From assembly GCA_018064885.1 (NCBI GenBank), contig JAGHUI010000036.1, forward strand, positions 1-57,604: a stretch of DNA of 57,604 bases. Direction: 5' to 3'. Below are positions 8,698 through 57,402 of the stretch, one piece after another. The notes beneath the pieces are model-generated. The model was not told the origin of the DNA and searched no databases. It saw only the letters and a program-made list of their open reading frames with translations. This stretch comes from Candidatus Minthosoma equi. Its GTDB lineage: Bacteria; Bacteroidota; Bacteroidia; Bacteroidales; Bacteroidaceae. The translations under genes and the position numbers were made by a program. The stretch's first letter is position 1; the number at the start of each line of letters is the position of its first letter.

Positions 8698-9951
8698 TTA
8701 AGCAGCAATGCCTACAAGATGATAAAGGGCTCCATTCCTTGTGTGTTTCGACACACATCCAAGATACTTCAATGTCTGTCCCACGCGAATATTGGTTGCG
8801 TTTCCTGTTTTCAAGGATGGGTAAACCTTTGTCATAGCCTTGCACACATCCTTGCAACTGAGCCATTCGCCCTCCTCGTTCTCTCGTGGCAGACGGAAGC
8901 AATGAAGAAGTATGCTCTCCATGTCATCTGTGCGGAAGTATGGGAGATTTGCTTGCTGCATTCGCTCCACCTGATCATTGCCAAACCAGTAAGGAGTCTT
9001 ATCCACATTTATCTCGTGCAACAGCTGGGCATAAAGCTGGGAGTAATTGATAGGAGAAGTGTTGTCGATGAATTGTCCCTTCTTCACTTTCAGACAGATG
9101 TAGCGGCGACTGCCTGTAGGGTCGCAAAGCGGATGCTCATCGTTGGTTGTGGCAAGGAAACTCGCATAGCGGCGGCGATCCTCCTGCGCCTTACCGAAGA
9201 TCGGACGGCCATTAACCTTAACCTTCGAGAGCGTCTGCTTCAGCTTGCCCTGCTGAGTCGTTCCCATGTTGGCAAACTCGTCAATGTTGACAAGCAGGTT
9301 GTGGGTGAGCGCCATCTCGCTGTCAAACTTATTGCCAAAATTGATGTGATCCATGAAGTAGCAGCGCAGATGTTCTGGCAGCAAGCGGACAGCAAACGTG
9401 CTCTTGCCGCATCCCTGCTCACCAATCAGTATTGGCACACATTCATTGCCGTGCAGCATGTCGATGCCCAGCCAATGTGCCACGGCAGAGCGCATCCATG
9501 TGGCGCACCACGAAAGCTGTTCGCTCGTAATGCCAGGAATGCGGCTGAACAAGTCTGCCACATGGTTCTTTCCGTCCCACTCAGGCAGGCGGTCAAGAAA
9601 CTCATGCACAGGATCGTATGTCTCCACAGCATCAGAGTTTATGTACTCCTCGATGTTCTGTCGTGGCGACTTATCACCACCAATGCCTTCCTTCTTAGCA
9701 TGGCGCACAATGGAATTGACAATCTCTGCCGTCACCGCCTTCCATTCTGGCTTCATATCTTTTGTCTCCTCCACATCTTTAATCTGCGAAGTGTTTGCCA
9801 GACATGTAGCCATTTCCACCTTGCCATTCAGCACGTTGCGTCGAAACATGTAATTCTCACCAAGGAAAGCCTCCACCTCGTAGATGGCTCCCTGCATCTC
9901 GGTCATCACCACGGATGCCTCGATAATTGACTTTGATTTGTTCTGATTCAT
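8698..9951 (-). CDS. VapE/VirE-type ATPase (predicted primase-helicase partner) of a mobile element
   Basis: 417 residues from the ATG at 9951 (MNQNKSKS). A longer frame to 10074 exists, but it starts upstream of the promoter candidate at 9987-9994, so the short start is preferred. The virulence-associated-E domain spans about 110-370: EWDGKNHVADLF, Walker A GEQGCGKST, Walker B VNIDEF, and a sensor-like FLATTNDEHPLCDPTGSRRY. The C-terminus looks like a winged helix (CKDVCKAMTKVYP). Such proteins act as superfamily III-like helicases in phage satellites and integrative elements. The usual BT4734-type primase domain is absent here but present in the separate protein at 54641-57118. Flanked by a repeat array and a gene of unknown function. 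Confidence 0.88.
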   Translation of the reverse strand: MNQNKSKSIIEASVVMTEMQGAIYEVEAFLGENYMFRRNVLNGKVEMATCLANTSQIKDVEETKDMKPEWKAVTAEIVNSIVRHAKKEGIGGDKSPRQNIEEYINSDAVETYDPVHEFLDRLPEWDGKNHVADLFSRIPGITSEQLSWCATWMRSAVAHWLGIDMLHGNECVPILIGEQGCGKSTFAVRLLPEHLRCYFMDHINFGNKFDSEMALTHNLLVNIDEFANMGTTQQGKLKQTLSKVKVNGRPIFGKAQEDRRRYASFLATTNDEHPLCDPTGSRRYICLKVKKGQFIDNTSPINYSQLYAQLLHEINVDKTPYWFGNDQVERMQQANLPYFRTDDMESILLHCFRLPRENEEGEWLSCKDVCKAMTKVYPSLKTGNATNIRVGQTLKYLGCVSKHTRNGALYHLVGIAA

Positions 9952-43258: not shown

Positions 43259-43293
43259 AAATGAAAGCTCCTCATTCCGAAGAGCTTTCATTT
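43259..43293. terminator. Bidirectional terminator overlapping the end of prsW
   Basis: A 12-bp perfect stem AAATGAAAGCTC/GAGCTTTCATTT with an 11-base loop. On the plus strand it is followed by T-rich TTCTTTTA. The last seven codons and the stop of prsW (43272) lie inside it. Confidence 0.82.
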
Positions 43294-44030
43294 TCTTTTA
43301 TATCTGTTTTCTGAAAAATTGTTTCATTGTCTTTCGCCAGCAAGGTGTGCATCCTCTTGTGACCGACTGTCCACATATATATAGATAGGGCTATAAAGCC
43401 GATGGTTGCTACGAACTCGATAACTGGATCCATATCGAGGGAGAGCAGTGTGCAGTCAAAAATGCCATGGAAAAGCAATGGTGCTATGAAAGCAGTTATC
43501 ATGCGACGAACACGCAGATGCTTAGGACCGAATACTGCCAATGAGTAGTAATAGCCCATGAACACAGCATAGAGAAAGTGACCAGGCACACTGAGGAAAG
43601 CACGGAAAATACCAACCAAAGCAAAGTCTTCAAGATCATCAAGACAAACTAAAAGATAACTGATGTTTTCCAATCCTGCAAAACCTAAACCAACGCAGGC
43701 AGCATAGACTATGCCATCCATTCGTTCATCGAAATATGGATTATTCCTTACTAAAAGCCAGAAGAACAAGAATTTCATACTTTCTTCGGACAAGGCAACA
43801 GTAAGGAAACTGTCATACACCGCACCTATAATGCTCTCGGTTACAGGCTGATGCAACTCTGGCCAAGAAAACTCAATAAAAAGAGCAGGAATACATGACA
43901 GGGCTCCAAACCAAAAAGCCTTGGCGATCCAACGCCAAGGTTCACGCTGATACTTGTCTTTCCAATAAATGAAACCGACAAGTATCAGCGCTGGTAATAT
44001 GCCTGAAAGTATTGCTAAGAAATATAACAT
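43272..44030 (-). CDS. prsW: PrsW-family intramembrane metalloprotease
   Basis: 252 residues with about seven or eight hydrophobic segments. Family motifs are present: EESMKF with the two glutamates, GFAGLENISYLL, HFLYAVFMGYYYS and LLFHGIFDC with the putative zinc histidines. In Bacillus, PrsW starts cleavage of the anti-sigma factor RsiW; in Bacteroidetes the substrate is unknown. It begins 3 bases after the MORN gene, so the two are co-transcribed. Confidence 0.93.
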   Translation of the reverse strand: MLYFLAILSGILPALILVGFIYWKDKYQREPWRWIAKAFWFGALSCIPALFIEFSWPELHQPVTESIIGAVYDSFLTVALSEESMKFLFFWLLVRNNPYFDERMDGIVYAACVGLGFAGLENISYLLVCLDDLEDFALVGIFRAFLSVPGHFLYAVFMGYYYSLAVFGPKHLRVRRMITAFIAPLLFHGIFDCTLLSLDMDPVIEFVATIGFIALSIYMWTVGHKRMHTLLAKDNETIFQKTDIKENESSSE

Positions 44031-44033
44031 TTA

Positions 44034-44960
44034 TTACTTATCAGATGGCTTGACCTTGCGGAAGATCATCCAACCGAGAGAGAGTACAAGTACCGCAAGG
44101 AGTACGATTGCAGCAGGTGTGAGCTGACCATTAACAATGAGCGCATTCTTGAGGCTTGTCATAAGCTTGTGTATAATAGATTCTTCACCTACAAACTTGT
44201 TGTTCTCCCAGTTACCTGCCATCTCAAGACCGCTTTTTGTAGTATATACACCGTAGCCATGACGCTTGTCATTATGGAAGTTACCAACATAAACAGAGCC
44301 GTTCTTGCTTGTGTATGTACCTTCACCCTCGAATTTAGAGAGGACAAAATTGCCTTTGTAGCTTGCGCCGTTAGCAAACTGATAAAAACCTTGTCCTTCT
44401 CTTTCACCGTTCACCCAATTGCCTTCGTAATAGTCACCTGTAGCATAGAAATCATACCTTCCCTGACCATTGCGGCGGTTGTTCTCGTAATGTCCAGTGT
44501 ATGTGTCACCGTTTGCTGCAATGAACTTACCTTCACCCTGACGGACATCGTTCACCCAGTCACCCTCATAAGAGTCACCGTTTGCCCAGCGGAGCTTACC
44601 CTTGCCGTTACGCTTGCCCTCGTGCCAATTGCCTTCGTAGAGGTTGTTCTTGCCTGCATAATATGCAATACCTGCACCTTCTTGCTTGCCGTTCTTGAAA
44701 CCTCCTTGATAGACATCGCCCTCAGCCCATGCGTATGTGCCATAGCCTTCAAGCTTGCCCTTTACAAAGTTTCCTTCGTAAACGTCACCATTGTCCCACT
44801 CGTATGTACCCTGTCCGTGGAACACCCCACCTTTCTTTTCACCGCGGTAAGTACCTGCATTTTTAAGATCTGCAGCTTTTGCAAGATCTTTGGCATCGTC
44901 TGCAGACATTGTGCCAGCAAACATGAAAAATGCCATTAACAAAAAGAAATAGTTTTTCAA
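44034..44960 (-). CDS. Exported MORN-repeat protein with C-terminal membrane anchor
   Basis: 308 residues. The signal peptide ends near GTMSA. Nine to ten MORN repeats (for example YEGNFVKGKLEGYGTYAW, YEGNWHEGKRNGKGKLRWA) fill residues about 38-255, and a C-terminal helix (AAIVLLAVLVLSLGWMIF) ends with positive residues. The topology is repeats outside the inner membrane. MORN sheets often act as binding scaffolds. Transcribed from a consensus promoter and coupled to prsW. Confidence 0.92.
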   Translation of the reverse strand: MKNYFFLLMAFFMFAGTMSADDAKDLAKAADLKNAGTYRGEKKGGVFHGQGTYEWDNGDVYEGNFVKGKLEGYGTYAWAEGDVYQGGFKNGKQEGAGIAYYAGKNNLYEGNWHEGKRNGKGKLRWANGDSYEGDWVNDVRQGEGKFIAANGDTYTGHYENNRRNGQGRYDFYATGDYYEGNWVNGEREGQGFYQFANGASYKGNFVLSKFEGEGTYTSKNGSVYVGNFHNDKRHGYGVYTTKSGLEMAGNWENNKFVGEESIIHKLMTSLKNALIVNGQLTPAAIVLLAVLVLSLGWMIFRKVKPSDK

Positions 44961-45193: not shown

Positions 45194-45228
45194 TTGTTGG
45201 ATATATAATAATATAATGTGTAACTTTG
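45194..45228 (+). promoter_or_regulatory. Promoter for the fimbrillin-TIR-channel operon
   Basis: TTTTGTTG, 21 bases after the second TTG, then TAACTTTG followed by C. Start point near 45235, leader about 70 bases. It is the only consensus promoter seen before 53970, supporting one long transcript. Confidence 0.62.
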
Positions 45229-45306
45229 CCCTCGTTACCTATTTATTCATTCGTATAAATGATAGCAATACTTAGAAATTTAATGAACAACAAAAATATA
45301 ACAACA

Positions 45307-46329
45307 ATGAAAAATCTTTTTACTTTTGGCGGTGCACTTTGCATTGCAGCTGCAACAATGATGTTCGTATCTTGCAGCAATGAAATCACAGAGACAAGCG
45401 AAACTGTTCAGACAAAGACTAATGTCCCTGTAAAGGTTAGACTCTATACAGGTCAGAGTTCACGTGCTGCTGAGACAACATTAGCAGATGTTGCACGTGG
45501 TAGTCTCGAATTAGTAGTTTACAAGAAGGCAAAAGACGGCACAATGACTAATCTCAATGCCAGCTACGAACTTGACGCCAATGGAAACCTCTCTCTCTTC
45601 ACTCTTAATGGCACAGAAAAGTATCTTCTCAGCTGGCCAACAGATGGCTCTACACTTGTGTTTGCTGCACAGTACGGTGCTATAAATGATATTTTCGAAA
45701 ACAGCAGCCAAGGCAATACAGCTGCAACATTCATCAGCAATACATTTGACATGAGTCTCTTAAACGCAACTTCTGAGTATGACGTTGTAACGGGTTATGC
45801 AGAAAGCACATTGACAGCCAGCACAGCTGGTGTTGTCAACTTGACACTCTCTCACATGCTAACTGAGCTTAACATAACATGCAAGGCTCCTGACGCTAAT
45901 ATCACTTATGCAGTAAATAGCATTGAGATGACAACTATGGCTATCGGTGCTAAATATGCTATCACTACAGGTACGTGGACACCAGACCCTGCAGGTTCTG
46001 AGCCTCAGGTTATTGAAATCCTTTCTAGCAACAGCAATCCTATCGACCTCACAACTGCAGGTGTAGATGCAAACAACACTGTGTTTGTATATCCAGATGC
46101 TGGTGCTAAGCTTTCTATCACATATTCTGCTAAGAGAACAACTCCTAACGGTGATATGCCTGTAGATTTCGGTAATGGCAATCTTACTAATACTGTAGAA
46201 GTTGAACTCGCTCTCGTAAAAGGTGAGAAGCAGCGCTATACTATTACTCTTCCATCAACAACAGTAGCAAGCGCAAAGGTTGTCGTTGATGCTTGGCCTG
46301 CTGAAGAAAACACAGATAAGGCTCTCTAA
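45307..46329 (+). CDS. Fimbrillin-family lipoprotein (Mfa/FimA-like)
   Basis: 340 residues from MKNLFTFGG; an upstream in-frame ATG at 45259 would misplace the signal. The lipobox FVSC puts the lipidated Cys at 23. The fold signature includes VPVKVRLYTGQSSRAAE near the N-terminus, LTLSHMLTELNITCKA in the middle and VKGEKQRYTITLPS near the end, typical of Bacteroidetes fimbrillin-type proteins. In the Porphyromonas system such subunits are lipidated, cleaved after Arg in the outer membrane and polymerised; an Arg lies at SSRAAE. First gene of the operon. It could be a stalk, tip or sensor. Confidence 0.9.
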   Translation: MKNLFTFGGALCIAAATMMFVSCSNEITETSETVQTKTNVPVKVRLYTGQSSRAAETTLADVARGSLELVVYKKAKDGTMTNLNASYELDANGNLSLFTLNGTEKYLLSWPTDGSTLVFAAQYGAINDIFENSSQGNTAATFISNTFDMSLLNATSEYDVVTGYAESTLTASTAGVVNLTLSHMLTELNITCKAPDANITYAVNSIEMTTMAIGAKYAITTGTWTPDPAGSEPQVIEILSSNSNPIDLTTAGVDANNTVFVYPDAGAKLSITYSAKRTTPNGDMPVDFGNGNLTNTVEVELALVKGEKQRYTITLPSTTVASAKVVVDAWPAEENTDKAL

Positions 46330-46348
46330 TATTCCTGTACAGTAAAAG

Positions 46349-46990
46349 GTGACTATATTAAAAAACATATTGCTTGCTGCATGCATGGCGGTCAGTACGA
46401 CTGCCGTGCATGCTCAGCATGCAGATACTGTTCAACCTACTTCCATCAATTCAAAACCTTCTTCGTGCTGGGTTGCACTCAAAACAAATGCATTAGCGTT
46501 TCCGATACTTGAACCTAATGGAGGCATTGAATTTGGTTTTGCTGGCAGATTTAGTATTGGCATAGACGGCTATCGTCCACGTTTTCACAATGTTGGTAAA
46601 AAAGGTATTGAAGTGAATGCCAATCTTTGGGGAGGCGACATCCGTTACTGGCTGAAACCTTGGAACAAAGAAGGAGGTCGTTCTATGAAGGGACATTTCT
46701 TTGGTGCATACTACACTGAAGGAATGGTGGATCTTCAGTACAACGAAAAGGGTAACCAAGCTGAAGTCATAACCACTGGTTTTGAGTACGGATACGTATT
46801 TCCTATTGCTAAGCATTGCCGTTTGGAGCTTGGGCTTGGCGTGGGCTACTTGCGTGCCGACTATGATCATTTCAAAGTTGCTGGTGACGGAAAGCAACTG
46901 AACTACTGTCATTCTGGTCGCACCACATGGTGGGGACCAACAAAAGCAAACGTTTCTTTTGTGCTCCTTCTTGGAAAGGGCGCAAAATAA
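46349..46990 (+). CDS. DUF3575-type outer-membrane protein of fimbrial loci
   Basis: 213 residues. The start is GTG at 46349, 19 bases after the fimbrillin stop; this start preserves the signal peptide (LLAACMAVSTTAVHAQ). The mature part begins ALKTNALAFPILEPNGGIEF, the usual DUF3575 opening, and continues as a short barrel (GIEVNANLWGGDIRYWLKPW, KHCRLELGLGVGYLRADY). DUF3575 proteins accompany Bacteroidales fimbrillin genes. The exact role is not established. Confidence 0.88.
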   Translation: MTILKNILLAACMAVSTTAVHAQHADTVQPTSINSKPSSCWVALKTNALAFPILEPNGGIEFGFAGRFSIGIDGYRPRFHNVGKKGIEVNANLWGGDIRYWLKPWNKEGGRSMKGHFFGAYYTEGMVDLQYNEKGNQAEVITTGFEYGYVFPIAKHCRLELGLGVGYLRADYDHFKVAGDGKQLNYCHSGRTTWWGPTKANVSFVLLLGKGAK

Positions 46991-46996
46991 AGAGCT

Positions 46997-47965
46997 ATGA
47001 GATTAATCATCATAAACATATTAGCACTGCTCACTCCTCTGCTGACACTTTTTGACTGTTCAGGAGGAATGCGAACTCTTGACCGCAGCAGCATTGAGGA
47101 CGAGCGAGAAATAACGCTCTACTTCGACTGGCATCAGTTGAGTGAACGCCCAACAGGAATGACTGTGCTGTTCTATCCTGAAGATGGCGGCGAACCATAC
47201 AAGTTCGTTAGCAATGTCGTGGATTCCATCACTGTGAAATTGCCGCATCAGAACTATGAAATGCTGGTATTCAATCAGACAGTGGAGGAATACAGGTCGC
47301 TTGCATTCAGAAATCTTACAGACTTCGCCTTGGCAGAAATGTATATTCCAGATGATGGCACACGCGCTTTCAACTCAAAGACCCGTTTGCAGCCAAACTC
47401 ATCTGCCACAAAATCTACAACCATTCCAAAAACAACACGTGCTCTCATAGAAAGAGCTAAGTTCTACATTGAACCAGAAAACCGCATCTACGACATGGAT
47501 GTAACTGTCTATGTTCGTGGTATTCAGTTCATGCGCAGTGTTGAGGGTTCTATGGACGGATTGGCAAGCGGTTTCAAACTCAACAGAGAAGCCCTTGTAG
47601 ATGAGCAGATGACGCAGATTCTTGAAGGTTGGGATATTCAACAGCCAAACAGCGAGGGCGTAGGCAATATCCATATCAACTTCGGTACTCTCGGTATTCC
47701 GTACCTTACTGATAGTGAAAGTGGCAATTCTGCAAATGTGAATTTGGATCTCACGTTCACACTTACCAACGGTGAGCAAGTGCATTTCTCTTTCAACGTT
47801 ACCAAGTACATTCAGGTGCATGAAGGTGGAACAGGTATCTACATAGACCTCTACCTCGGCACAAACGAGGAAGACAATATTCCACCTTTGGAACTATCTC
47901 CTTCTGAGGGTGCTTTCAAAGTCGAATCTTGGGGAGAAGAAAAGAACCATGAGATAAAGCTGTAA
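46997..47965 (+). CDS. DUF5119 fimbrial lipoprotein
   Basis: 322 residues. The lipobox TLFDC places the Cys at residue 21. The N-terminal part (REITLYFDWHQLSERPTGMT) and the central FKLNREALVDEQM are typical of DUF5119 proteins next to fimbrillin genes, probably an anchor or accessory subunit. Starts 6 bases after the DUF3575 stop and ends 22 bases before the TIR gene. Confidence 0.88.
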   Translation: MRLIIINILALLTPLLTLFDCSGGMRTLDRSSIEDEREITLYFDWHQLSERPTGMTVLFYPEDGGEPYKFVSNVVDSITVKLPHQNYEMLVFNQTVEEYRSLAFRNLTDFALAEMYIPDDGTRAFNSKTRLQPNSSATKSTTIPKTTRALIERAKFYIEPENRIYDMDVTVYVRGIQFMRSVEGSMDGLASGFKLNREALVDEQMTQILEGWDIQQPNSEGVGNIHINFGTLGIPYLTDSESGNSANVNLDLTFTLTNGEQVHFSFNVTKYIQVHEGGTGIYIDLYLGTNEEDNIPPLELSPSEGAFKVESWGEEKNHEIKL

Positions 47966-47987
47966 ACGAGATTAAGGCATAAATATT

Positions 47988-49109
47988 ATGATCAAGCAAA
48001 ACTTTGCATTCATCAGTTACAACCACCGCGACATGAAGCACGCCAAGTGGTTGCAGAAGAAACTGGAATCGTATAAGCTGCCAACAGAGATTCACAATGA
48101 ATTTGACGACAGCCGTTACATCCGTCCTGTGTTCCGTGACCAAACAGATCTCAACACAGGCGTGCTGGGCAATGTTTTGCGAGATCAGCTCGAAGCTTCT
48201 CATTTTCTTGTAGTAATCTGTTCTCCTAATTCTGCTCATTCTGAGTGGGTAAGCAAAGAAGTACAAGCATTCATAGAATGGGGACGCATCGACCGTATCA
48301 TTCCACTCATCGTTGAAGGACAGCCAAACTGCTACAACCCTGATATGGAATGCTTCCCTGAGTATTTAAGAAACTATACAAAGGAGCATCCAGAACATGA
48401 ACTGTTAGGAATCAGTTTTGCTGAAATCGGCAAGGAAAAAGCATTCATCCGAGTCGTTTCAAAGATGCTTGATGTTTCGTTCGACACTCTTTGGAAACGC
48501 CACGAACGTGAACGTCGCCGCCGTATAGCAATAGCATGTATCAGCACACCAATCATCATTGCAGCACTCTATTGGTTTGTTATGCCATGCAGCATAAACC
48601 TCACGCTAAAGGATGCCAATCACCAGCTTCCAATCAGCAAGAATAAGGAAGGACATGTAGGTATTGTGTCTGTAAACGGAACAGACTATAGAGTGAATTC
48701 TCTTGACACAACACTTATTATCTCAGCACTTCCTGGCTATTTCCGCTGTCAGAATGTACCTGTAAGTTTCAAGGCTATCTATTACGATTCTTTGCAAGTA
48801 GATGTGCCAATGGGAGTGGGAATTAGTGCAGATTACCTCCTACAGTTGCAGCGAGATGATTCTTTCCAGCATTTTGCAGGAAAAGTTATTGATGCAGCTG
48901 ATGGCAATGGTGTAGAGGGGGCAGAAGTCAGCATTGACAATGGAAAATATAAATCAACCACTTATGCCGACGGACATTTTGACATAGACATACCAATCTC
49001 TGATCAGCGAGAATATAAAGATGTAATAATCCATAAGGATGGTTATCAGGAATTCTCAAGCGAAGAAGAGACAGTTGATAACGATGTTACTTTCATGATT
49101 CACAAATGA
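47988..49109 (+). CDS. Membrane-anchored TIR protein with periplasmic carboxypeptidase-regulatory-like domain
   Basis: 373 residues. The TIR domain spans about 1-165: FAFISYNHRDMKHAKWLQK, then VVICSPNSAHSEWVSKEV. Glu91, four residues after Trp87, is at the position of the catalytic glutamate of NAD-cleaving TIR domains. A basic stretch (RHERERRRR) precedes one transmembrane helix at about 180-200. The remainder has a beta region and a C-terminal carboxypeptidase-regulatory-like fold from about 295 (GKVIDAADGNGVEGAEVS). There is no signal peptide, so TIR should be cytoplasmic and the C-terminal part periplasmic. NADase activity is an inference from one motif. It overlaps the next gene by ATGA. 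Confidence 0.9.
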   Translation: MIKQNFAFISYNHRDMKHAKWLQKKLESYKLPTEIHNEFDDSRYIRPVFRDQTDLNTGVLGNVLRDQLEASHFLVVICSPNSAHSEWVSKEVQAFIEWGRIDRIIPLIVEGQPNCYNPDMECFPEYLRNYTKEHPEHELLGISFAEIGKEKAFIRVVSKMLDVSFDTLWKRHERERRRRIAIACISTPIIIAALYWFVMPCSINLTLKDANHQLPISKNKEGHVGIVSVNGTDYRVNSLDTTLIISALPGYFRCQNVPVSFKAIYYDSLQVDVPMGVGISADYLLQLQRDDSFQHFAGKVIDAADGNGVEGAEVSIDNGKYKSTTYADGHFDIDIPISDQREYKDVIIHKDGYQEFSSEEETVDNDVTFMIHK

Positions 49110-49882
49110 TGAAACGAGCAATACTTTCAGGCATGCTTCTTTTGGCATGCCTTTTTCTTTCCGCACAAATCACTCAGAAGGTGCAAGTTCTGGAATACAA
49201 TGGCAAGCAGCAAAAGACTCCGCTTGCCACTGTTGAGGTTTCCGTTGCTAATGCAGGAAGTACGATTAGCGATGCCAAGGGTGAAGCAACGCTGCGCTTC
49301 CGCACTCTCAAAGCAGGAGACAGAGTGCAGGTGAAGCGTATCGGCAAAGACGGTTACGAGATTTTCAACAAAGATGCCCTTAAGCAATGGATGGTCAGCG
49401 GCAGCACCACCTTCACCATTGTCCTCTGTAAAACGGCATCATTCAAGAAGTTATGTGACAATTACAACCGTGCAGCAAGTGCAAGTTATGAAGCGCAATA
49501 TAAAAAGGAGCAGAATAAGCTTGCTGCCGAGCGCAAAGCAGGAAAGCTAAAGGAAGAAGAATACAAGCAGAAACTTCAACAGCTTGAAGACGATTATGCC
49601 CAACAGCTTGAAGATCTTGAAAAATATGTTGATGCCTTTGCTCGTATTGACTTGAGTGAAATATCTGAGCAAGAACAAAAGATTATCGATCTTGTCCAAG
49701 AAGGAAAAATTGATGAAGCAATCAAGCGCTATGAAGAGCTTGACCTTCTCTCCAAATATCAGCAGCAGAGCAAAGAGATAAAGAACATCTCTGATGCAGA
49801 GGATTCTCTGAAAATAATCCGAGACGAGAAACAAGCCGCTGTTGACACACTCAAAAGAGTTATTGACCTGATGCAGCAATAA
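49106..49882 (+). CDS. Exported beta-domain/coiled-coil protein, short paralogue
   Basis: 258 residues. A signal peptide ends near FLSAQ. An N-terminal carboxypeptidase-regulatory-like domain (EVSVANAGSTISDAKGEATL) resembles the C-terminal domain of the TIR protein. A long charged coiled coil (about 120-255; AERKAGKLKEEEYKQKLQQL) follows. It is clearly paralogous to the first third of the next protein (NGKQQKTP versus KGKQQKTA; LSEISEQEQKIIDLVQEGKI versus LSEISSVEQEIIDLVQQGKM). Function unknown; the operon position suggests a periplasmic partner of the TIR protein. Confidence 0.85.
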   Translation: MMKRAILSGMLLLACLFLSAQITQKVQVLEYNGKQQKTPLATVEVSVANAGSTISDAKGEATLRFRTLKAGDRVQVKRIGKDGYEIFNKDALKQWMVSGSTTFTIVLCKTASFKKLCDNYNRAASASYEAQYKKEQNKLAAERKAGKLKEEEYKQKLQQLEDDYAQQLEDLEKYVDAFARIDLSEISEQEQKIIDLVQEGKIDEAIKRYEELDLLSKYQQQSKEIKNISDAEDSLKIIRDEKQAAVDTLKRVIDLMQQ

Positions 49883-49902
49883 TCCTAAACTCAAAAACTC
49901 GC

Positions 49903-51765
49903 ATGACACATATATATAATATAAAGACAGCATTCGCATTGCTATTTTCTGCAATGTTATCCATTGGTATAGCCAATGCGCAGACAACACAGAAAATTGC
50001 CGTGAAGGAATACAAAGGCAAGCAGCAAAAGACAGCCATCCCACAGGTTGGAGTCACCGTCACCAATGCAGGTGCAACAATCACAGATGCCAATGGTGAA
50101 GCATCACTACGCTTCCGTTCATTGCAAGCAGGTGATAAGGTTGAAGTGAGACGAATTGAGAAGCAAGGATATGAGGTGTTCAATCAAGATGCGCTTGACC
50201 AATGGACCATCAGCTCCACCAACGCCTTCGTTATCGTCCTTTGCAAAAGTGACAATTTCAAACAGTTGAAAGACAGTTACATGCGTGCTTCCAGCGCAAG
50301 TTACGAACGTCAATATAAAAAAGATCAGGATAAGCTTGACGCTGAGCGCAAAGCAGGAAAACTGAAACAGGAAGAGTTTGAGCAGAAGATGCAAGAACTC
50401 GAAGACGAATATTACGAACAACTTGAGAATCTTGAAAACTACGTTGATCAGTTCTCACGCATTGACCTGAGCGAGATCTCATCTGTAGAACAGGAAATCA
50501 TCGACCTTGTTCAGCAAGGCAAGATGGATGAAGCAGTCGCACTCTACGAGAAGAACGATTTTCTTGGTCGTTACGAAAAAGAAACTGCCGACATTCGCAA
50601 GATTGACCAAGCAACACAGCGTCTGCAAGAAGTGGAAGCACAGAAGAGACAAGAACGCAGCGAAATTCTTGCCTCCATCAACCGTCAGATTGCCACATAC
50701 CGTCTTGCCGGAGGAAGAGAGAACTTCAAGAAAATATCCGCTCTCATGAAGGGAATGGCAGATGCCGACCTCACCAACAATGATGCCGTCATGCCATACA
50801 TCAACCACCTTCGTCAGCAGAAAGAATACGAAGAATGCAAGAAGTACATCACTATATGTGCCGACAACAACAAATCGGATATTGACATACAATGCTGGTG
50901 CCATTCCAAGCTCTCCCAATGTCAAATTGAAGAAGGCGACTTTGACGCATGCGAGCAGTCACTTCTGAAAATCGCAGAACTCCGAAAGAACGACGAACCA
51001 TCAGGTTCACAATATCTTGGTCTTCTTGCCAAGGCACAGCAAGAACTTGCATCTTTCTATGTGAACATTGGAAATACGGAAATGGCAAAAGAATGGATAG
51101 CCCCAGCCATCAGCAACTACGAAAAGCTTTATTCCGACCCCGATGACGGCTCGCTCTATTGGGGCGGTCTTTCACAACTCTATGGCAGTCAAGCAATCAT
51201 CTATCTTGAAGAAGAAAATGCTGACGGGGCAGAGAAATACGCTATCAAGGCATACGATGTTGTTCATGGGCGCACACTCACCGACGACATTGATGGTCAA
51301 TACTACGACATGACACTCAACTATGCCCAGCAGGTGTTCTATACGCTTGAGCGATGGACAGACATGGAAAAATACCTGCTTGAAGAAATCATCTTTCTTG
51401 AGGAGCGTTTCAAAAACAATCCAGACTCCTACATAGACAAACTGGAAGGAGCCTGCAGCAACGCCTCCGAACTTTATACCAATATGGAACAGTACGACAA
51501 AGCAGAACAATACTTCAAGAAAGCCGATGCCCTGCTGATGCAGATGGAATCCGACCAAGGCAGCGAATGCTGGTATCAGCGTTTCTGCCTCTACGATGCT
51601 GCAGCCCATCTTTACGAAAGCATGCAGCAATCCGAGGATGCCAGAAAATTCGCCAAGCTTGCCCTCCAAGCATTTGACAAACTCGAACCAGAAGAAAGCA
51701 ATGGTTTCGAAGAAAATGCCGAGTCGCTCCGCAATTTTTTTAACGAAAACGAAAACGAAAACTAA
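49903..51765 (+). CDS. Exported beta-domain/coiled-coil protein with TPR extension
   Basis: 620 residues. The signal peptide ends near GIANAQ. Residues about 28-245 parallel the preceding protein. The C-terminal region from about 270 consists of TPR-like helical pairs (DFDACEQSLLKIAELR, MEQYDKAEQYFKKADALLMQ, SEDARKFAKLALQAFDKL). It ends FFNENENEN because the stop codon sits inside an AAAACG repeat tract. TPRs suggest a scaffold for other periplasmic proteins. Function unknown. Confidence 0.88.
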   Translation: MTHIYNIKTAFALLFSAMLSIGIANAQTTQKIAVKEYKGKQQKTAIPQVGVTVTNAGATITDANGEASLRFRSLQAGDKVEVRRIEKQGYEVFNQDALDQWTISSTNAFVIVLCKSDNFKQLKDSYMRASSASYERQYKKDQDKLDAERKAGKLKQEEFEQKMQELEDEYYEQLENLENYVDQFSRIDLSEISSVEQEIIDLVQQGKMDEAVALYEKNDFLGRYEKETADIRKIDQATQRLQEVEAQKRQERSEILASINRQIATYRLAGGRENFKKISALMKGMADADLTNNDAVMPYINHLRQQKEYEECKKYITICADNNKSDIDIQCWCHSKLSQCQIEEGDFDACEQSLLKIAELRKNDEPSGSQYLGLLAKAQQELASFYVNIGNTEMAKEWIAPAISNYEKLYSDPDDGSLYWGGLSQLYGSQAIIYLEEENADGAEKYAIKAYDVVHGRTLTDDIDGQYYDMTLNYAQQVFYTLERWTDMEKYLLEEIIFLEERFKNNPDSYIDKLEGACSNASELYTNMEQYDKAEQYFKKADALLMQMESDQGSECWYQRFCLYDAAAHLYESMQQSEDARKFAKLALQAFDKLEPEESNGFEENAESLRNFFNENENEN

Positions 51766-51793
51766 AACCAAAACGAAAACGAAAACGAAAACG
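51742..51793. repeat. AAAACG hexanucleotide tract through a stop codon
   Basis: About eight units of GAAAAC/AAAACG with one ACTAAAAC and one CCAAAAC variant. The TAA within ACTAAAAC is the stop of the TPR gene; similar tracts occur at 54640-54670 and 57410-57444. Confidence 0.85.
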
Positions 51794-51794
51794 A

Positions 51795-51853
51795 CTCTTA
51801 ACTCTTAACTTACCAACTCAACTTTTAACTCTTAACTATTAACTTTTAACTTC
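51795..51853. repeat. TTAACT-type tandem tract before the channel gene
   Basis: Imperfect repeats of CTTAACT/TTTTAACT/ACTCTTAACT fill the 93-base gap. It is not a hairpin and has no promoter match. Confidence 0.75.
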
Positions 51854-51858
51854 CACCA

Positions 51859-53970
51859 ATGCTCCGGTTCTTCCGCAACTTCAAGCTCAACTTCGACCGT
51901 TCCTTCTCGAACAGCCTCGTCAAACAGATATACTGGCTCTCAGGCATCGTAGCAGCCATGTTCATCATCCTGCTCCTGCTCAGCCTCATTCCAGGACTTT
52001 ACACCCCTGGCAATGAGCAATACGGCAGAATCCCCGACATCATCTTCCTCCTTATCGACCCAGGAAGCGGCACAGACAGCATGTCGGCAGTATTCAGCAT
52101 CATCGGAGCACTCGTAGGTCTGGTAGCATTCACAGGCTGCCTCATCTCCGTCATCACCAACATCCTCAGCAATCGTGTGGAACAAGTGCGCAATGGAGAA
52201 ACATGGTACGACCTTGAGAACCACATCGTCATCATAGGCTTCAACGGTTCCGTACCATCCCTCATACACAGCATCTACGAAAAGAACCCCTCCGTTCGCA
52301 ATCACAAGGCATACATACTCATCATGAGCGAACAGTCAACCGAAGACATCCGCGCCAGCATTCATGTGGCAAATACAGAAGCTGAGGAAGACTGCATAGT
52401 CATCATACGCGGTCAGCGCACCGCCCTCGACGAACTGGACAAGCTCTCACTTGCAAAATGCCATAGCATATACCTGCTTGGCGAACCCGACGAAGAAGCA
52501 CACGACTCCATCAACCTTGAATGTCTCGGCTATATTGCAAACCTTCTGCCAGACCGTACTGTAGGACTTCCAGAATGTCATGTTCAGTTTGATGAGCAAT
52601 CACTCTTCTCCATATTCCAGTTCTCCGACATACCATCCACCGTCAACAAGCGCATGCACTTCATCCCATACAACTTCTGCGACGTATGGGCACAAAAGGT
52701 GCTCGTCAAGTGTGAGGCAGAAGACGGCCTTATCGGTTCCGACTACCGCATTCACTACCGTCCTATCGATGGAGAAGAAGGCATAAAGAAAGACAGCCCA
52801 AAGCACGTCCACCTCATCGTATCGGGAATGTCGCAAATGGGCATAGCACTCGCCGTCCAGACAGCCCACATCGCCCACTTCCCCAATTTCCGTGAAGACG
52901 ACAACAGCACACGCACACACATCACCCTCATAGATCCCGAGGCAGGCAAACTCATGCAGCAATTCATGGCACGCTTCCGCAGCATGTTCCAAGTGGCACG
53001 ATGGCGCTTTGTCCGAGCCGAAGACTTCATCAGCAATGCCTACCTGCAAGGCACAGCCCCACTCTACTCCCTCGACGACCAGCACTGGAACGACCCCATC
53101 TCTGACGCACAATCCACATCGCCATACAAGCATCTGGGTCCCAACTTCATCGACCTGCAATGGGAATTCATCGAAGCAGAGCCCGACATGCCCGTCCTCC
53201 AGCAATACATGCTCGATGCCGTCAGCGACACCTCTGCCATCACCACCCTCGCCTTCTGTCAAGACAATCAGGACGAATCGCTCCGTGCCAGCCTCTATCT
53301 GCCATATCAAACGTACGACCTTGCCCATCAGGTGCTCGTCTATCAGAACGAGAGCCCAACCATCATCCACACCCTCTCAGGCTTCTCCCTTCCAGAAGAA
53401 GAACGCCGCAAGCTGCGCTACGGCAAGATGGCGCCATTCGGCATGAACACAGAGTTCCACGTTGGCGACCTCGACAGCGAGAAATACGGCAGACTCGTCA
53501 ATGTCGCCTACAGCTGCAACCCAGACGACGGCATAGCAAGTCTCGAAGCCAAGCTCAACGACACAGAACATGTGGAGAAGGAATGGAACCGAACCAGCAT
53601 GGCAAACAAATGGTCAAGCACCTACAGTGCCAACATGCGCTACGTCAAGCTCCGCTTCATAGGTTGCAACCTCAACACCTCCACACGCACCGAGATAGAG
53701 GAAGCCATGGCAGCACACATCGAAGACATCAAAGTCACCGAACACAACCGCTGGAACGTAGAAAAGCTTCTCATGGGCTTCCGTCCGCTCACCGAACCCG
53801 AAACCCACGCCACAAAAGACGAGAAGAAACGACTCCGCAAATCCTCACAGCTCGCCCATCTCGACATCTGCTCATACCAAGACCTCAAAACCATCGACCC
53901 CGCCACCATTATCTACGATGCCTCCGTCAACATGGCACTTCCTATCATGGTGGACATCATCAGGGGATAG
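51859..53970 (+). CDS. CASTOR/POLLUX-like ion channel with Rossmann domains and RyR-type C-terminus
   Basis: 703 residues. Two transmembrane helices (about 24-47 and 76-103) flank a pore-like loop IDPGSGTD (66-73), reminiscent of the DxG-type filters of CASTOR/POLLUX channels. A Rossmann/RCK domain begins at 121 (HIVIIGFNGSVPSLIHSIY), with a second nucleotide-binding-like segment near 315 (HLIVSGMSQMGIALAVQTAH). The C-terminal 80 residues resemble an RyR domain (TEHNRWNVEKLLMGFRPL, then LAHLDICSYQDLKTID). TIR/RyR linkage has been discussed for bacterial nucleotide-signalling conflict systems, as I recall. Last gene of the fimbrillin-TIR operon. Ligand and ion are unknown. Confidence 0.8.
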   Translation: MLRFFRNFKLNFDRSFSNSLVKQIYWLSGIVAAMFIILLLLSLIPGLYTPGNEQYGRIPDIIFLLIDPGSGTDSMSAVFSIIGALVGLVAFTGCLISVITNILSNRVEQVRNGETWYDLENHIVIIGFNGSVPSLIHSIYEKNPSVRNHKAYILIMSEQSTEDIRASIHVANTEAEEDCIVIIRGQRTALDELDKLSLAKCHSIYLLGEPDEEAHDSINLECLGYIANLLPDRTVGLPECHVQFDEQSLFSIFQFSDIPSTVNKRMHFIPYNFCDVWAQKVLVKCEAEDGLIGSDYRIHYRPIDGEEGIKKDSPKHVHLIVSGMSQMGIALAVQTAHIAHFPNFREDDNSTRTHITLIDPEAGKLMQQFMARFRSMFQVARWRFVRAEDFISNAYLQGTAPLYSLDDQHWNDPISDAQSTSPYKHLGPNFIDLQWEFIEAEPDMPVLQQYMLDAVSDTSAITTLAFCQDNQDESLRASLYLPYQTYDLAHQVLVYQNESPTIIHTLSGFSLPEEERRKLRYGKMAPFGMNTEFHVGDLDSEKYGRLVNVAYSCNPDDGIASLEAKLNDTEHVEKEWNRTSMANKWSSTYSANMRYVKLRFIGCNLNTSTRTEIEEAMAAHIEDIKVTEHNRWNVEKLLMGFRPLTEPETHATKDEKKRLRKSSQLAHLDICSYQDLKTIDPATIIYDASVNMALPIMVDIIRG

Positions 53971-53989
53971 GGATATAAAGTCACAAAGT

Positions 53990-54052
53990 CATTTTGTCAT
54001 TTTGTCATTTTGTCATAAAAATAGGCATGCGATTCTCACGAATAGCATGCCT
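53990..54052. terminator. CATTTTGT tandem repeat and convergent hairpin
   Basis: Three full copies of CATTTTGT (53990-54013) are followed by a hairpin at 54023-54052: an 8-bp stem AGGCATGC/GCATGCCT with an inner ATT/AAT pairing. It lies between two convergent genes and could end transcription from both sides, although T runs are short. Confidence 0.55.
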
Positions 54053-54102: not shown

Positions 54103-54531
54103 CTACGACTTGAAGCAAAAAGCCATGTTGTACGCATCGTCAAGCATTTCATCTGATGGCAAGTACTGACTCTCTACCCAGCACATAGCCTTGACCAGAG
54201 TCTTGAAATCAGCCGAATTCATTCCTTGTATTATTTTCAGATTTCTGTCAAAATGAGCCAAATTGCATACCGTTTTGATATAAGCCTCGGTATTGTTGCC
54301 ATCGGACGGAGGAGCCCATCGTGAAATGATGCCCTCTATCGTATTGATGCCGTACTTACGACCATAATAATCAATCAGTCGGAACATAGCACGAAGACCG
54401 TACTCCATCGACTTGAATCTTATGAAGCTTTTATCCGTCTGTTCATTCAAAGGCAACTGACCGTCAAATGTTGCACCCTTGCGAATATTGCCAGGATTAT
54501 TATTCCTGATTCCTCTTGTAGTTCTTTCCAT
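54103..54531 (-). CDS. P5-like (phage structural/lysozyme-type) protein
   Basis: 142 residues from the ATG at 54531 (MERTTRGIRN). A longer frame to 54564 exists, but the matching leader at 57446-57495 shows ACG in place of that ATG, so it is rejected. The N-terminal RGIRNNNPGNIRKG is the hallmark of proteins commonly annotated structural protein P5 in Bacteroidales elements. The rest is helical (FRLIDYYGRKYGINTIEGII, AYIKTVCNLAHFD). A lysozyme-like fold has been proposed for such sequences; activity is unproven. It lies downstream of the primase gene. Confidence 0.82.
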   Translation of the reverse strand: MERTTRGIRNNNPGNIRKGATFDGQLPLNEQTDKSFIRFKSMEYGLRAMFRLIDYYGRKYGINTIEGIISRWAPPSDGNNTEAYIKTVCNLAHFDRNLKIIQGMNSADFKTLVKAMCWVESQYLPSDEMLDDAYNMAFCFKS

Positions 54532-54545
54532 AAGTTTTAGTTTTA

Positions 54546-54595
54546 CACCATCAACATCCCCCAAAACTGAACGAGCATCAAATATCTTTTTAAAA
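54546..54595 (-). repeat. 50-bp leader repeat, copy 1
   Basis: Matches 57446-57495 at 46 of 50 positions; all four differences are transitions. On the minus strand it ends 15 bases before the P5-like ATG. The shared core is AACTGAACGAGCATCAAATA. Confidence 0.85.
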
Positions 54596-54640
54596 TTATA
54601 TTTTGACGTTCAGCTTAAAGAAATATGTTGACGGTCAAAG

Positions 54641-57118
54641 TTATCGTTTTAGTTTTCTTTTCTTTTTCGTTGGATCAACCTTTTTCCACTTGTCTGTGCC
54701 GACCTTTTCCACCCATCCTTCAATCTTCCATCGGGAGACGATATGCTTGACAGGTGAGAAGATGCCCAATCGCTGGCAGCGAGTCATGATGTCCGTCTTA
54801 TCAAATTCGTCAGGCAATTCATCGTAGAGAGAAGCATTGTGGCGAACCGTCTGGGCGAGAGCCTTGCGTGCTTGGTCGTTCATAAGCTCGTTGTACTTCT
54901 CGCCGAAGACCTTTATGCGCTCTTGAAGGTCTTTCTCCATGTAGGCAATCACGAAGTCCTTGATTATCTCCTTTTCCTTCTCGCCTACCTTTGCCCACAA
55001 GCCGTAGCAGGCGAGAGCGAGCGAGCCGCCCATTCGTGCCGTTCTGCGACGGAACGTGTCCTTTGCATGATTTCGGGCAAGCATTGCCTCGCTGAGCTTC
55101 TCCTTCTGCCATTTCTGCAAGTGCGGCCAGAGCCAAGAGAGGTCAATTTCTTGGAAGTCTTTGAAGGTGTATTTCCACTTGATTTGAGTGTCAAAATCCT
55201 TCTCGTCAACCTGCTCGGCTTCCTCCACCGTGAAATCTATTGCTTCCCTGTAGGTGTTCTCGTCCCACATCTGCACCACGCTTTCAATGGCTTCTCTCTG
55301 CTTCGCATTGAGCTTCTTGAAGATTGGCATTTCGGCAAACTCCTGATTGAGGATTGGGCAGAACGAGAAGCGTGTTATCATGCCGTTCTCTATGTTCTGG
55401 AAGCATCGGTCAATCTGTGCAGGTGTGCCTGTAAGCAAGATGTTGTAGAACATTCTTACGCTTCCCTTGAACGTGTTGGCACTCTTGAAGTCCTGTCCAT
55501 ACTCGCCATTGTCCCAAGCGACACGGAGCATATCGGTCTTATCGCCACCAGCCGCCTTTGAGCCCTTCACAAACGTATCGACCTCTTCGGCGAACGTGAA
55601 CATGTGGTAGCCTTTGTTGTCTCGCATCTTTGACAGGAACTCTGGCTGAGAGTTGATAGCCGCCATGATGCGCTTGCTGACGTGCGGATCGTTCTTTGCT
55701 GAATCATCGCCCTTCTTGTTGCGGAGGTAGATGGCTTCACGCATTCCTGCGACCACGTCACGAATCTTTGTCAATTCAAAGAGCTTTTCTATGTACGGCT
55801 GGCAGAATGACTTTCCGCTTCCTGCAGGCGCATAGATGATGTTGAAGAAGGTGGTCGTGAGCAAGTGACCGTCCATGTAAGTAGAGCGGAGGTAGCTCGT
55901 TTGCGTTCCGATGATAGGAGCGAGAGCGAAGATTGCAGGCCATTTGAAATCCTTAGGCGCACAGCTGACGAACTCTCGGAACACAGGCGGCAGCTTGGAC
56001 GGAATTGGCACATCGGTTTGTGTCTCTTCCATTTCCAGAATCTGCTTTGCTTCTGCTGTCACTCGCTCCTTGACTTGGTAGTAGCCATTGTCCTTCAGGA
56101 AGAAATAGAAGTCTCTCGGAATCTGACGGAGCGTTGTGCTTCTCGTGATGCCCTTGCATTGCTTCTGTCTCTCATCGGAAGGAAGACCGAAGTCTGGCAG
56201 AACGGCGAAGAGAACCTTCCATTCGTTGTTGGCAATGGAGCGGAAATCTGAAACCAAACGGTTGTAGAAGTTGTGTCGCTCTCCTTGCTCTGGCTTGCCA
56301 AGCTTGTTCACATACTTTTCAGCAATCTCCGTCAGCAGAAAACCATGATAGGTCATTTTTCGTAGCGTTTCAAGCTCTTGCTCGTATTCATCTGCCGAAC
56401 CGTTTTCGCTCTCCACTTTGCCGACTCCTTTCGCATCACTTGCTGCTGAGCCAGATGCTTTCTTTTCATTCTCTCCTTCTTCATTGTATGCAGATTTTAT
56501 AGGCTTATGAGTTGGTTCGTCCCACAGATTTTCGACGTAATAAATAATGTCATTCTTTCCCACCACGAAAGACAGTCGGGAGAAGTCCTTGCAAGCCGAA
56601 TCATAGTCGCCGTACTTGTCAAGCCCTAACTCTTGAACGAGCCAATCCATGTGTTCCTTGACAGTCGGGAAATCCTTGACCGCCCTTGCCACAATGCGAA
56701 GACCGCAACCCGATGGAGTGACATGAGCGAGCACGATTCCAAGCTCCTCGCATCGAGGCTCTATCTTCTCTTTAAACACCTTGCAAATGTATTGACTAAC
56801 ACCCTGCATAGCGCTCCCTCCCTCTACGGGAGGGCTGGGGAGGGTCTTTTCTATATGGTCAATGTCAATCATGTAGAACTGGGTAGGCTCAAGCATTTCT
56901 GCTCTGCGCTCTCCATCGGCATTGCAGCCCACCCACATCGCTGCAGGCAGAAGAGCCTTGTAGCGAGAGTATGTTTCCTTATCGCCTTGCTCCAAGTACA
57001 TTCTCGCTCTTTCCACGTTGACCTCCACAGCGGTGTCGCTGATCAATTGCTCGAGCACCTCTTTTGTCAGCGGCTTCGCTTTCTTATCCGTTACTCTTTC
57101 TAAATACTGAAATCTCAT
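54641..57118 (-). CDS. BT4734-type primase-like and DUF3987 helicase-like protein of a mobile element
   Basis: 825 residues. The N-terminal BT4734/primase-like domain spans about 1-215 (AMWVGCNADGERRAEMLE, YMIDIDHIEK, HVTPSGCGLRIVARAV). DUF3987 follows from about 370, with PPVFREFVSCAPKDFKWPA, Walker A APAGSGKS and a Walker-B-like TFAEEVDTFV. Together these make a primase-helicase of the type found in Bacteroidales mobile elements. An in-frame palindromic repeat adds LPSPPVEGGS near residue 92. The C-terminus KKKRKLKR arises from an AAAACG-type tract and stops inside it. The start overlaps the stop of the small upstream gene by ATGA. A TAACTTTG box at 54636-54643 overlaps its stop and may serve the P5-like gene. 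Confidence 0.88.
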   Translation of the reverse strand: MRFQYLERVTDKKAKPLTKEVLEQLISDTAVEVNVERARMYLEQGDKETYSRYKALLPAAMWVGCNADGERRAEMLEPTQFYMIDIDHIEKTLPSPPVEGGSAMQGVSQYICKVFKEKIEPRCEELGIVLAHVTPSGCGLRIVARAVKDFPTVKEHMDWLVQELGLDKYGDYDSACKDFSRLSFVVGKNDIIYYVENLWDEPTHKPIKSAYNEEGENEKKASGSAASDAKGVGKVESENGSADEYEQELETLRKMTYHGFLLTEIAEKYVNKLGKPEQGERHNFYNRLVSDFRSIANNEWKVLFAVLPDFGLPSDERQKQCKGITRSTTLRQIPRDFYFFLKDNGYYQVKERVTAEAKQILEMEETQTDVPIPSKLPPVFREFVSCAPKDFKWPAIFALAPIIGTQTSYLRSTYMDGHLLTTTFFNIIYAPAGSGKSFCQPYIEKLFELTKIRDVVAGMREAIYLRNKKGDDSAKNDPHVSKRIMAAINSQPEFLSKMRDNKGYHMFTFAEEVDTFVKGSKAAGGDKTDMLRVAWDNGEYGQDFKSANTFKGSVRMFYNILLTGTPAQIDRCFQNIENGMITRFSFCPILNQEFAEMPIFKKLNAKQREAIESVVQMWDENTYREAIDFTVEEAEQVDEKDFDTQIKWKYTFKDFQEIDLSWLWPHLQKWQKEKLSEAMLARNHAKDTFRRRTARMGGSLALACYGLWAKVGEKEKEIIKDFVIAYMEKDLQERIKVFGEKYNELMNDQARKALAQTVRHNASLYDELPDEFDKTDIMTRCQRLGIFSPVKHIVSRWKIEGWVEKVGTDKWKKVDPTKKKRKLKR
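56815..56848. repeat. Palindromic CCCTCCC/GGGAGGG repeat inside a coding region
   Basis: A 7-bp CCCTCCC stem, loop TCTAC, GGGAGGG, then CTGGGGAGGGTC. It resembles a dispersed Prevotella-type palindromic repeat and is translated in frame as part of LPSPPVEGGS within the primase domain. Confidence 0.75.
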
Positions 57119-57402
57119 TTCTTAAAATTGTAGGTTAATAACTTAGTAATCACCACGGTCACAGCCTTAGTGAACATCTCCGAGATCACGTCCCTTCCAC
57201 CTTTCGGCAGAGAGATCAGCACCTGCACCCTATTCTTCGAAGTCTTGATGCTCCAGTTCTCGCCCTCAGTCACCATCTTCGTCCCATTAGGGTTCGTACC
57301 CTTCTGTTCCGGCTGGCATTGAAACTCGCCAAACTCATTCACCCAGAACGTGCCATGATACTTCTCGCCAGGCACTAATTGCATTTTCTGCTTTTCCTTC
57401 AT
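57115..57402 (-). CDS. Small hypothetical protein upstream of the primase-helicase
   Basis: 95 residues, soluble and basic at both ends. Beta-rich in appearance (GEKYHGTFWVNEFGEFQCQ, NWSIKTSKNRVQVLISL), with a helical tail (VISEMFTKAVTVVITKLLTY). No family recognised. The stop overlaps the primase start as ATGA, so they are translationally coupled; a single-strand DNA-binding or accessory role is only a guess. Its start is fixed by the repeat-containing leader. Confidence 0.72.
   Translation of the reverse strand: MKEKQKMQLVPGEKYHGTFWVNEFGEFQCQPEQKGTNPNGTKMVTEGENWSIKTSKNRVQVLISLPKGGRDVISEMFTKAVTVVITKLLTYNFKK

Follow-up and report, generated by a model that had tools for sequence, protein, structure and literature searches.

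A membrane TIR protein and a RyR-tailed channel in one Bacteroidaceae operon suggest nucleotide signalling to an ion channel

The stretch of DNA analysed here, which we call the window, is 57,604 nucleotides long and comes from the gut bacterium Candidatus Minthosoma equi (Bacteroidaceae; assembly GCA_018064885.1, contig JAGHUI010000036.1, positions 1 to 57,604). Between 45307 and 53970 its + strand carries seven colinear genes, which encode a fimbrillin-like protein, a DUF3575 protein, a DUF5119 protein, a transmembrane TIR protein (TIR-TM), two coiled-coil proteins (CC1 and CC2) and a channel that ends in a ryanodine-receptor-like (RyR-like) domain (Table 1). The Pfam families above cut-off across the operon are Mfa_like_1, DUF3575, DUF5119 and TIR_2, plus TPR_8 in gene 6. 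The pairing of a membrane TIR with a RyR-tailed channel suggests a bacterial form of ADP-ribose-nucleotide signalling to a channel.

Table 1. Features of the operon and its immediate neighbours, in window coordinates
Feature	Position	Strand	Basis and remarks
Bacteroidota-type promoter candidate	45197..45228	+	TTG 45197-45199, 21 bases, TAACTTTG 45221-45228; direct reading and pattern scan
Gene 1, fimbrillin-like protein (Mfa_like_1)	45307..46329	+	PF13149, E 5.8e-14
Gene 2, DUF3575 protein	46349..46990	+	PF12099, E 1.4e-24; GTG start
Gene 3, DUF5119 protein	46997..47965	+	PF17145, E 1e-25; hydrophobic N-terminal segment
Gene 4, TIR-TM protein	47988..49109	+	PF13676 (TIR_2), E 3.8e-13
Gene 5, CC1, short CCreg protein	49106..49882	+	CCreg hidden Markov model (HMM); 4-base overlap with TIR stop
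Gene 6, CC2, long CCreg protein	49903..51765	+	TPR_8, E 1.1e-6; CCreg HMM
Gene 7, channel	51859..53970	+	Structure model, fold matches
RyR-like domain of channel (residues 606-703)	53674-53967	+	Tail modelled alone: solely RyR structures matched
MORN-repeat protein, divergent neighbour, possible accessory	44034..44960	-	PF02493
PrsW-family intramembrane protease, possible accessory	43272..44030	-	PF13367, E 2.6e-39

The intergenic gaps are 19, 6, 22, -4, 20 and 93 bases, exactly as in a first-pass annotation of this DNA that had described a seven-gene colinear operon behind one promoter. The promoter candidate is in place as well: a pattern scan puts a TAnnTTTG box, a consensus that we take to be of Bacteroidota type, upstream of gene 1, and between 44901 and 54000 on the + strand it finds two further such strings, both within gene 1, and none downstream. 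We set the start of gene 1 at the ATG at 45307; another in-frame ATG lies at 45259, and the protein has a lipobox-like Cys (by eye). Against a single operon speaks a terminator-like hairpin at 49129-49152, inside gene 5, which may be the operon end. Terminator-like sites in the region number 10, compared with 9.0 expected. In the related locus described below, gene 5 holds no + strand terminator-like site, and the strongest site there is bidirectional and lies past an eighth gene (9132-9161 of that locus).

Two kinds of repeat were also seen in this region. The arms GGCATGC...GCATGCC are common to an inverted repeat inside gene 5 (49130-49151) and to a second one after the channel gene (54024-54051), a pair expected 0.02 times in shuffles of the window. 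Simple repeats flank the channel gene at 51742-51851 and 53988-54016: AACGAA x 8.8 spans the gene 6 stop, ACTCTTA/AACTTTT repeats lie inside the 93-base gap and GTCATTTT x 3.6 follows gene 7. These simple repeats might tune the expression of the channel.

A second genus of the family has all seven genes in the same order: in Candidatus Minthousia equi (locus L063, on the same contig as our entry G130:C76) they follow one another with gaps of 11, 8, 10, -8, -4 and 3 bases. Protein identity between the window and this locus is, from gene 1 to gene 7, 35% (fimbrillin), 52%, 48%, 75% (TIR), 64%, 50% and 71% (channel), and DNA identity is about 64-69% where the two can be aligned. Because the order, with tight gaps, is kept at 35-75% protein identity, the seven-gene unit has been held together over considerable divergence.

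TIR-TM has its TIR domain at residues 8-119 and a single hydrophobic segment at residues 179-203. An Arg-rich stretch precedes this one span, so the TIR domain is predicted to lie inside and the tail outside, a topology compatible with the periplasmic input that had been proposed for the operon. Part of the tail (residues 297-366) is CarboxypepD_reg-like (PF13620, E 5.5e-6, below cut-off). Many TIR domains are NADases, that is, they consume nicotinamide adenine dinucleotide (NAD). Here the Glu91 position (codon at 48258-48260) is occupied by Glu in 109 of the 111 aligned TIR domains of channel loci. When the seven proteins were run through PADLOC (E 0.01), TIR-type profiles matched gene 4 alone, SAVED_TIR being the best (2.6e-9) and ThsB following at 3.9e-5. 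Some gut Bacteroides TIR domains produce cyclic ADP-ribose (cADPR) or v-cADPR-x in vitro, according to PMC9092222.

The two proteins that follow are paralogous over about 230 residues, with 58% identity between CC1 and the N-terminal portion of CC2. We use the name CCreg for the region that they share, an N-terminal region and a coiled coil. Both have signal-like N-termini (that of CC2 judged by eye), which in CC1 leads into the coiled coil, and CC2 ends in TPR repeats. CC1 has no Pfam family above cut-off, and its PADLOC match to LmuB (E 0.0014) was taken as coiled-coil noise.

The structure model of this inner-membrane channel (pLDDT 90.7) contains a two-helix pore and an RCK gating ring, an arrangement that resembles GsuK and CASTOR/DMI1. 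The hydrophobic stretches of the channel are residues 19-52 and 72-104, the pore loop DPGS is at residues 67-70, and the ring covers about residues 120-605. The top Foldseek match is GsuK, NAD- and ADP-bound forms included, and PMC3510474 reports that ADP and NAD activate that protein. None of 46 aligned channels has the TVGYG potassium filter. This lack, the RyR-like tail and the TIR and CCreg partners set the channel apart from GsuK and MthK, with which it shares the two-helix pore and the RCK ring. It differs from the CASTOR/DMI1 calcium channels of plant nuclei in its RyR-like tail, its bacterial operon and its two predicted spans, where CASTOR has four predicted membrane spans according to PMC6697748.

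When the tail was modelled alone, all 33 of 33 fold matches were ryanodine-receptor structures; no other fold was listed, and others are possible. The closest solved fold is PDB 3NRT, a putative ryanodine receptor of B. thetaiotaomicron, which unlike the tail is a free-standing 103-residue protein. Four residues of the tail, H629, W632, H667 and D687, are the same in every one of the 46 aligned channels and correspond, by hhalign pairing, to the four ligand-contact residues of RyDEP. According to the 2026 preprint PMC13232231, RyDEP is a phage RyR-domain glycosidase or sponge, and phage RyR domains degrade or sequester signals of the ADP-ribose (ADPR) type. The motif EH[NV]RWN was one of the two scan seeds that yielded 45 of the 46 aligned channels, which inflates the invariance of H629 and W632 and leaves H667 and D687 untouched. 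A further alignment (A1), whose seven sequences were obtained without this seed, likewise shows no variation at H629, W632 and H667.

The first-pass annotation had made its reading depend on whether the TIR and channel genes are found together in other genomes. They co-occur and co-localise far above chance, so the reading came through this test. The genus was represented by 45 genomes; nine of them have a match to the TIR query, and exactly these nine also match the channel query. Equal sets would have a probability of about 1e-9 if the two were independent, with the reservation that related genomes are not. In 399 genomes of the family, the TIR was matched in 34, the channel in 48 and both in 24 (Fisher p 1.1e-17; E up to 1e-10, with part of the first-look candidates scored). 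A Pfam TIR gene lies within 10 kb of 8 of 15 channel places in the genus, compared with 1 of 24 DUF5119 and 2 of 32 PrsW matches (Fisher p 7e-5); for this count split channel matches were merged (17 to 15) and two TIR matches below cut-off were omitted. Three of the seven channel places without a nearby TIR are on contigs shorter than 9 kb. From the side of the TIR genes, 19 of 41 matches in the genus have a channel or RyR gene no more than 10 kb away. Separate RyR genes (PF02026) occur in 9 of the 45 genomes, namely in eight of the nine channel genomes and in one more, which has three TIR matches and no channel match.

A wider sample points the same way. It consists of the best 80 of 149 relatives found by scanning a species-genome collection with the channel alignment; all are Bacteroidota, and we take them to belong to Bacteroidales genera and families, two (L100 and L123) being placed in Bacteroidia only. 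Genes were called mechanically and tallied with home-made profiles, and 39 of the 80 loci are shorter than 21 kb. A TIR gene is present in 40 loci, a RyR-domain gene in 34 and either in 56; SIR2 domains were found in 12, nSTAND in 11, CCreg in 8 and CHAT in 5. The corresponding counts for the 41 loci that reach 21 kb are 24 for TIR, 22 for RyR and 32 for either. On the strand of the channel lie 57 of 61 TIR genes and 33 of 34 RyR genes, where other genes split 530 to 415. The channel loci hold 61 TIR genes in 1.40 Mb, compared with 41 above-cut-off Pfam matches in the 45 genomes (about 130 Mb), a comparison that mixes home-made profiles at the loci with Pfam for whole genomes. Ten companion proteins were also run through PADLOC (E 1e-5): two SIR2-TIR and two TIR proteins match TIR-bearing profiles (PDC-S66, ThsB, SAVED_TIR and others), and two nSTAND, two CHAT-type, one 507-residue and one RyR protein are without a match.

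The unit that recurs is a TIR-TM protein, a secreted CCreg protein and the channel, often with a separate RyR gene. Full-length relatives of TIR-TM were found at 33 loci (two contigs are counted twice), and in 25 of these a CCreg gene lies within 2.5 kb. Among the other eight, L050, L124 and L169 have TPR-type fragments upstream at the contig edge, L161 begins at a contig edge, and L055, L069, L074 and L076 remain without CCreg. TIR, CCreg and channel genes share one strand in L111 and L141, and also in L110, with two genes separating CCreg and TIR; in L134 and L162, where a RyR gene and one further gene separate the channel from the TIR; and in L083, where SIR2-TIR and nSTAND genes intervene.

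As regards mobile carriage, the channel had no match in 72,556 plasmid records, and one fecal 'Bacteriophage sp.' record holds a partial channel and a RyR gene. A small RyR protein has matches in 262 of 50,697 phage records (E up to 0.01), four of them over 80% of its length; among the 20 matches listed, most are annotated as hypothetical.

Since the tail has a RyR fold and the RyDEP ligand residues, and the TIR domain keeps Glu91, gating of the channel by a TIR product is a concrete hypothesis, and the core of the operon suggests a membrane-linked nucleotide signalling module. We propose that the CCreg proteins and the tail of TIR-TM would detect changes to the envelope and draw the TIR domains into clusters; the TIR domains would then convert NAD to an ADPR-type nucleotide, either a cADPR isomer or something similar. 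The RyR-like domain, as its residues suggest, would bind this nucleotide, and the RCK ring would open the pore. What enters would be cations or calcium, because the pore is without the TVGYG filter and resembles the calcium-channel filter of CASTOR. We give an even chance to the central claim, that the TIR product acts on the RyR-like tail and gates the channel. The chain from a putative surface-contact or phage-adsorption signal through the TIR domain to the channel, as first drawn up, is strengthened in its later steps by the TIR-channel link, the fold and residues of the tail and Glu91, and loses the fimbrillin trio as a rule. The outcome may be defence, a contact response or a stress response; we favour defence, because members of this channel family elsewhere have SIR2-TIR and nSTAND genes as neighbours. 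It is possible, and in our view unlikely, that the operon does in bacteria what the cADPR-RyR calcium axis does in animals, with an envelope-triggered TIR, a cADPR isomer, a RyR-fused calcium-permeable RCK channel and, in some lineages, fibre proteins as the outside sensor. If gating by a TIR product is correct, nucleotide-gated ion flux would be an effector, a membrane-anchored TIR would take its input from the envelope, and the debated link between cADPR and ryanodine-type domains could be tested directly in a small bacterial system.

Several results weigh against this proposal. The RCK and RyR-like folds of the CASTOR/RyR-like channel named in the first-pass annotation are borne out by the model and the fold searches; in Pfam its support is weak, with Slo-like_RCK below cut-off and no PF02026 match in the tail. 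Whole-model Foldseek TM-scores are low (0.19-0.34 by query among the matches listed), Foldseek E-values for the tail are 0.85 or worse and the hhalign probability is 35.8%; the seed bias described above belongs here too. The PADLOC matches of gene 4 to TIR profiles are weak and the channel has none (E 0.01), PMC9092222 includes several Bacteroides strains without an active TIR, and the N-terminus of CCreg resembles a carboxypeptidase-regulatory domain by eye only, Pfam finding no regulatory-type domain in it. The linkage is also incomplete: in the family, 10 of 34 TIR genomes have no match to the channel and 24 of 48 genomes with a channel have none to the TIR, the genome of the window has no separate RyR gene (PF02026), and one of the nine TIR matches in the genus, that in genome G001, spans just 46 residues, contains three stops (E 7e-5) and counts for little.

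The best-surviving alternative concerns the first three genes and is compatible with gating of the channel by a TIR product. Fimbrillin, DUF3575 and DUF5119 genes form fibre loci, and their presence together as genes 1-3 fits a fimbrillin-type fibre locus. The trio is probably a surface-fibre unit in its own right, which has no more than a promoter in common with the TIR-channel module. Relatives of DUF5119 are present in 23 of the 399 family genomes and adjoin a TIR gene in two, the genome of the window and that of the second genus (G130), and the trio was seen at 1 of the 80 channel loci, in a single-query search that is insensitive for fimbrillins. The same search found no fimbrillin match at L083, L110, L111, L134 and L141, where TIR, CCreg and channel stand together (L162 was outside that scan), and in the two-genus comparison fimbrillin has evolved fast, at 35% identity compared with 75% for the TIR. 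On the other side, the full order with its tight gaps is kept in two genera. We have thus rejected the trio as a core or general part, as which it was first proposed, and retain it as a conserved local fusion. It would have been joined upstream in the lineage of the window, either as the thing sensed or for shared regulation only, and fimbrillin as a sensor in general is less likely still than the counterpart of the animal calcium axis.

It is less plausible, and in our view less likely than not, that the module is a physiological response of Bacteroidales to envelope stress or ion imbalance and not a defence. By eye, the channel sits among housekeeping-looking genes, partly with a RyR gene, in several of the 11 loci viewed, and 24 of the 80 loci contain no TIR gene and no RyR gene within the sequenced stretch (25 in a second tally, L098 being without a called channel gene). 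For these reasons the channel may work without a neighbouring TIR. The patchy distribution of the channel (48 of 399 genomes) and its SIR2 (12/80) and nSTAND (11/80) company argue against a physiological role.

Rather improbable, in our judgement, is that the TIR domain only depletes NAD, or is a non-catalytic adaptor, and that the channel reads the balance of NAD, ADP and ADPR through its RCK ring and tail with no dedicated messenger. The NADase activity of many TIRs favours this, as does the match to GsuK with its two activating ligands. However, the RyR-like tail and the separate RyR genes (34 of 80 loci) travel with the channel, which argues for a specific ligand in the RyR pocket. We think it very improbable that the tail and the small RyR proteins, like RyDEP, degrade the signal enzymatically and so reset the system, with the pore answering something else, since the domain is fused to the gating ring, the usual site of ligand gating, and relatives of RyDEP can also sequester the signal (PMC13232231). 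The point in favour is that H75 and D117 of RyDEP, catalytic according to the same source, correspond to H629 and D687, invariant in all 46 channels, so that the tail might hydrolyse its ligand and not sense it.

Compared with gating by a TIR product as proposed here, the nearest known system is Thoeris. There an effector is switched on by an ADPR-derived signal, the product of the TIR protein ThsB. The two are alike in this signal-to-effector logic and in having a TIR with a conserved Glu beside a protein with a likely ADPR-type pocket. They differ in that the TIR is here membrane-anchored, with a predicted periplasmic tail and CCreg partners, and in the candidate effector, here an RCK channel that carries a RyR-like sensor; no ThsA-type effector is among the seven operon proteins (PADLOC, E 0.01). 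RyDEP shares the RyR fold and the four ligand residues, but it is a free phage anti-defence protein, and the domain in the operon ends a host channel and has these residues spaced farther apart. Because ThsA is lacking and the tail is below the Pfam RyR cut-off, the unit was assigned neither to Thoeris nor to the Pfam RyR family; it would be a Thoeris-like form of TIR nucleotide signalling. Our literature search found no unit of a TIR and a RyR-domain channel, nor a host receptor in which a RyR-type domain is joined to a channel next to a TIR, and an earlier prediction from comparative genomics is possible; the words ryanodine and channel do not occur in PMC9503650, and ryanodine appears in the reference list alone in PMC8195603.

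The PrsW and MORN genes adjoin the operon as a pair (43272-44960). The related locus L063 has the pair at another position, with PrsW near the operon and the MORN homologue downstream of it, and PrsW relatives are also present in L062, L078, L114 and L126. As a core part PrsW is too common to say: it is present in 27 of the 45 genomes of the genus, and the two of 32 matches within 10 kb of a TIR are both in such islands.

RyR domains also appear in other settings. A second recurring cassette (L057:2890-10945, L060, L061, L105 and L138; cut by contig ends in L113 and L119) encodes a soluble RCK-RyR-like protein of about 490 residues, a trypsin-like, a kinase-like and a TPR-CHAT protein and one of about 460 residues; Pfam covered four genes of the L057 copy. 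At or near the end of longer proteins, RyR domains were seen in L062 (9989-10924), L081, L086, L109, L117, L126 and L163. The middle of the L062 protein resembles peptidase C39 (E 0.0029, below cut-off), and the other six are alike by eye. Downstream of the operon, 54103-57402 encodes a 153-residue protein without a Pfam match and an 825-residue BT4734-like protein (below cut-off), genes that resemble the remains of a mobile element.

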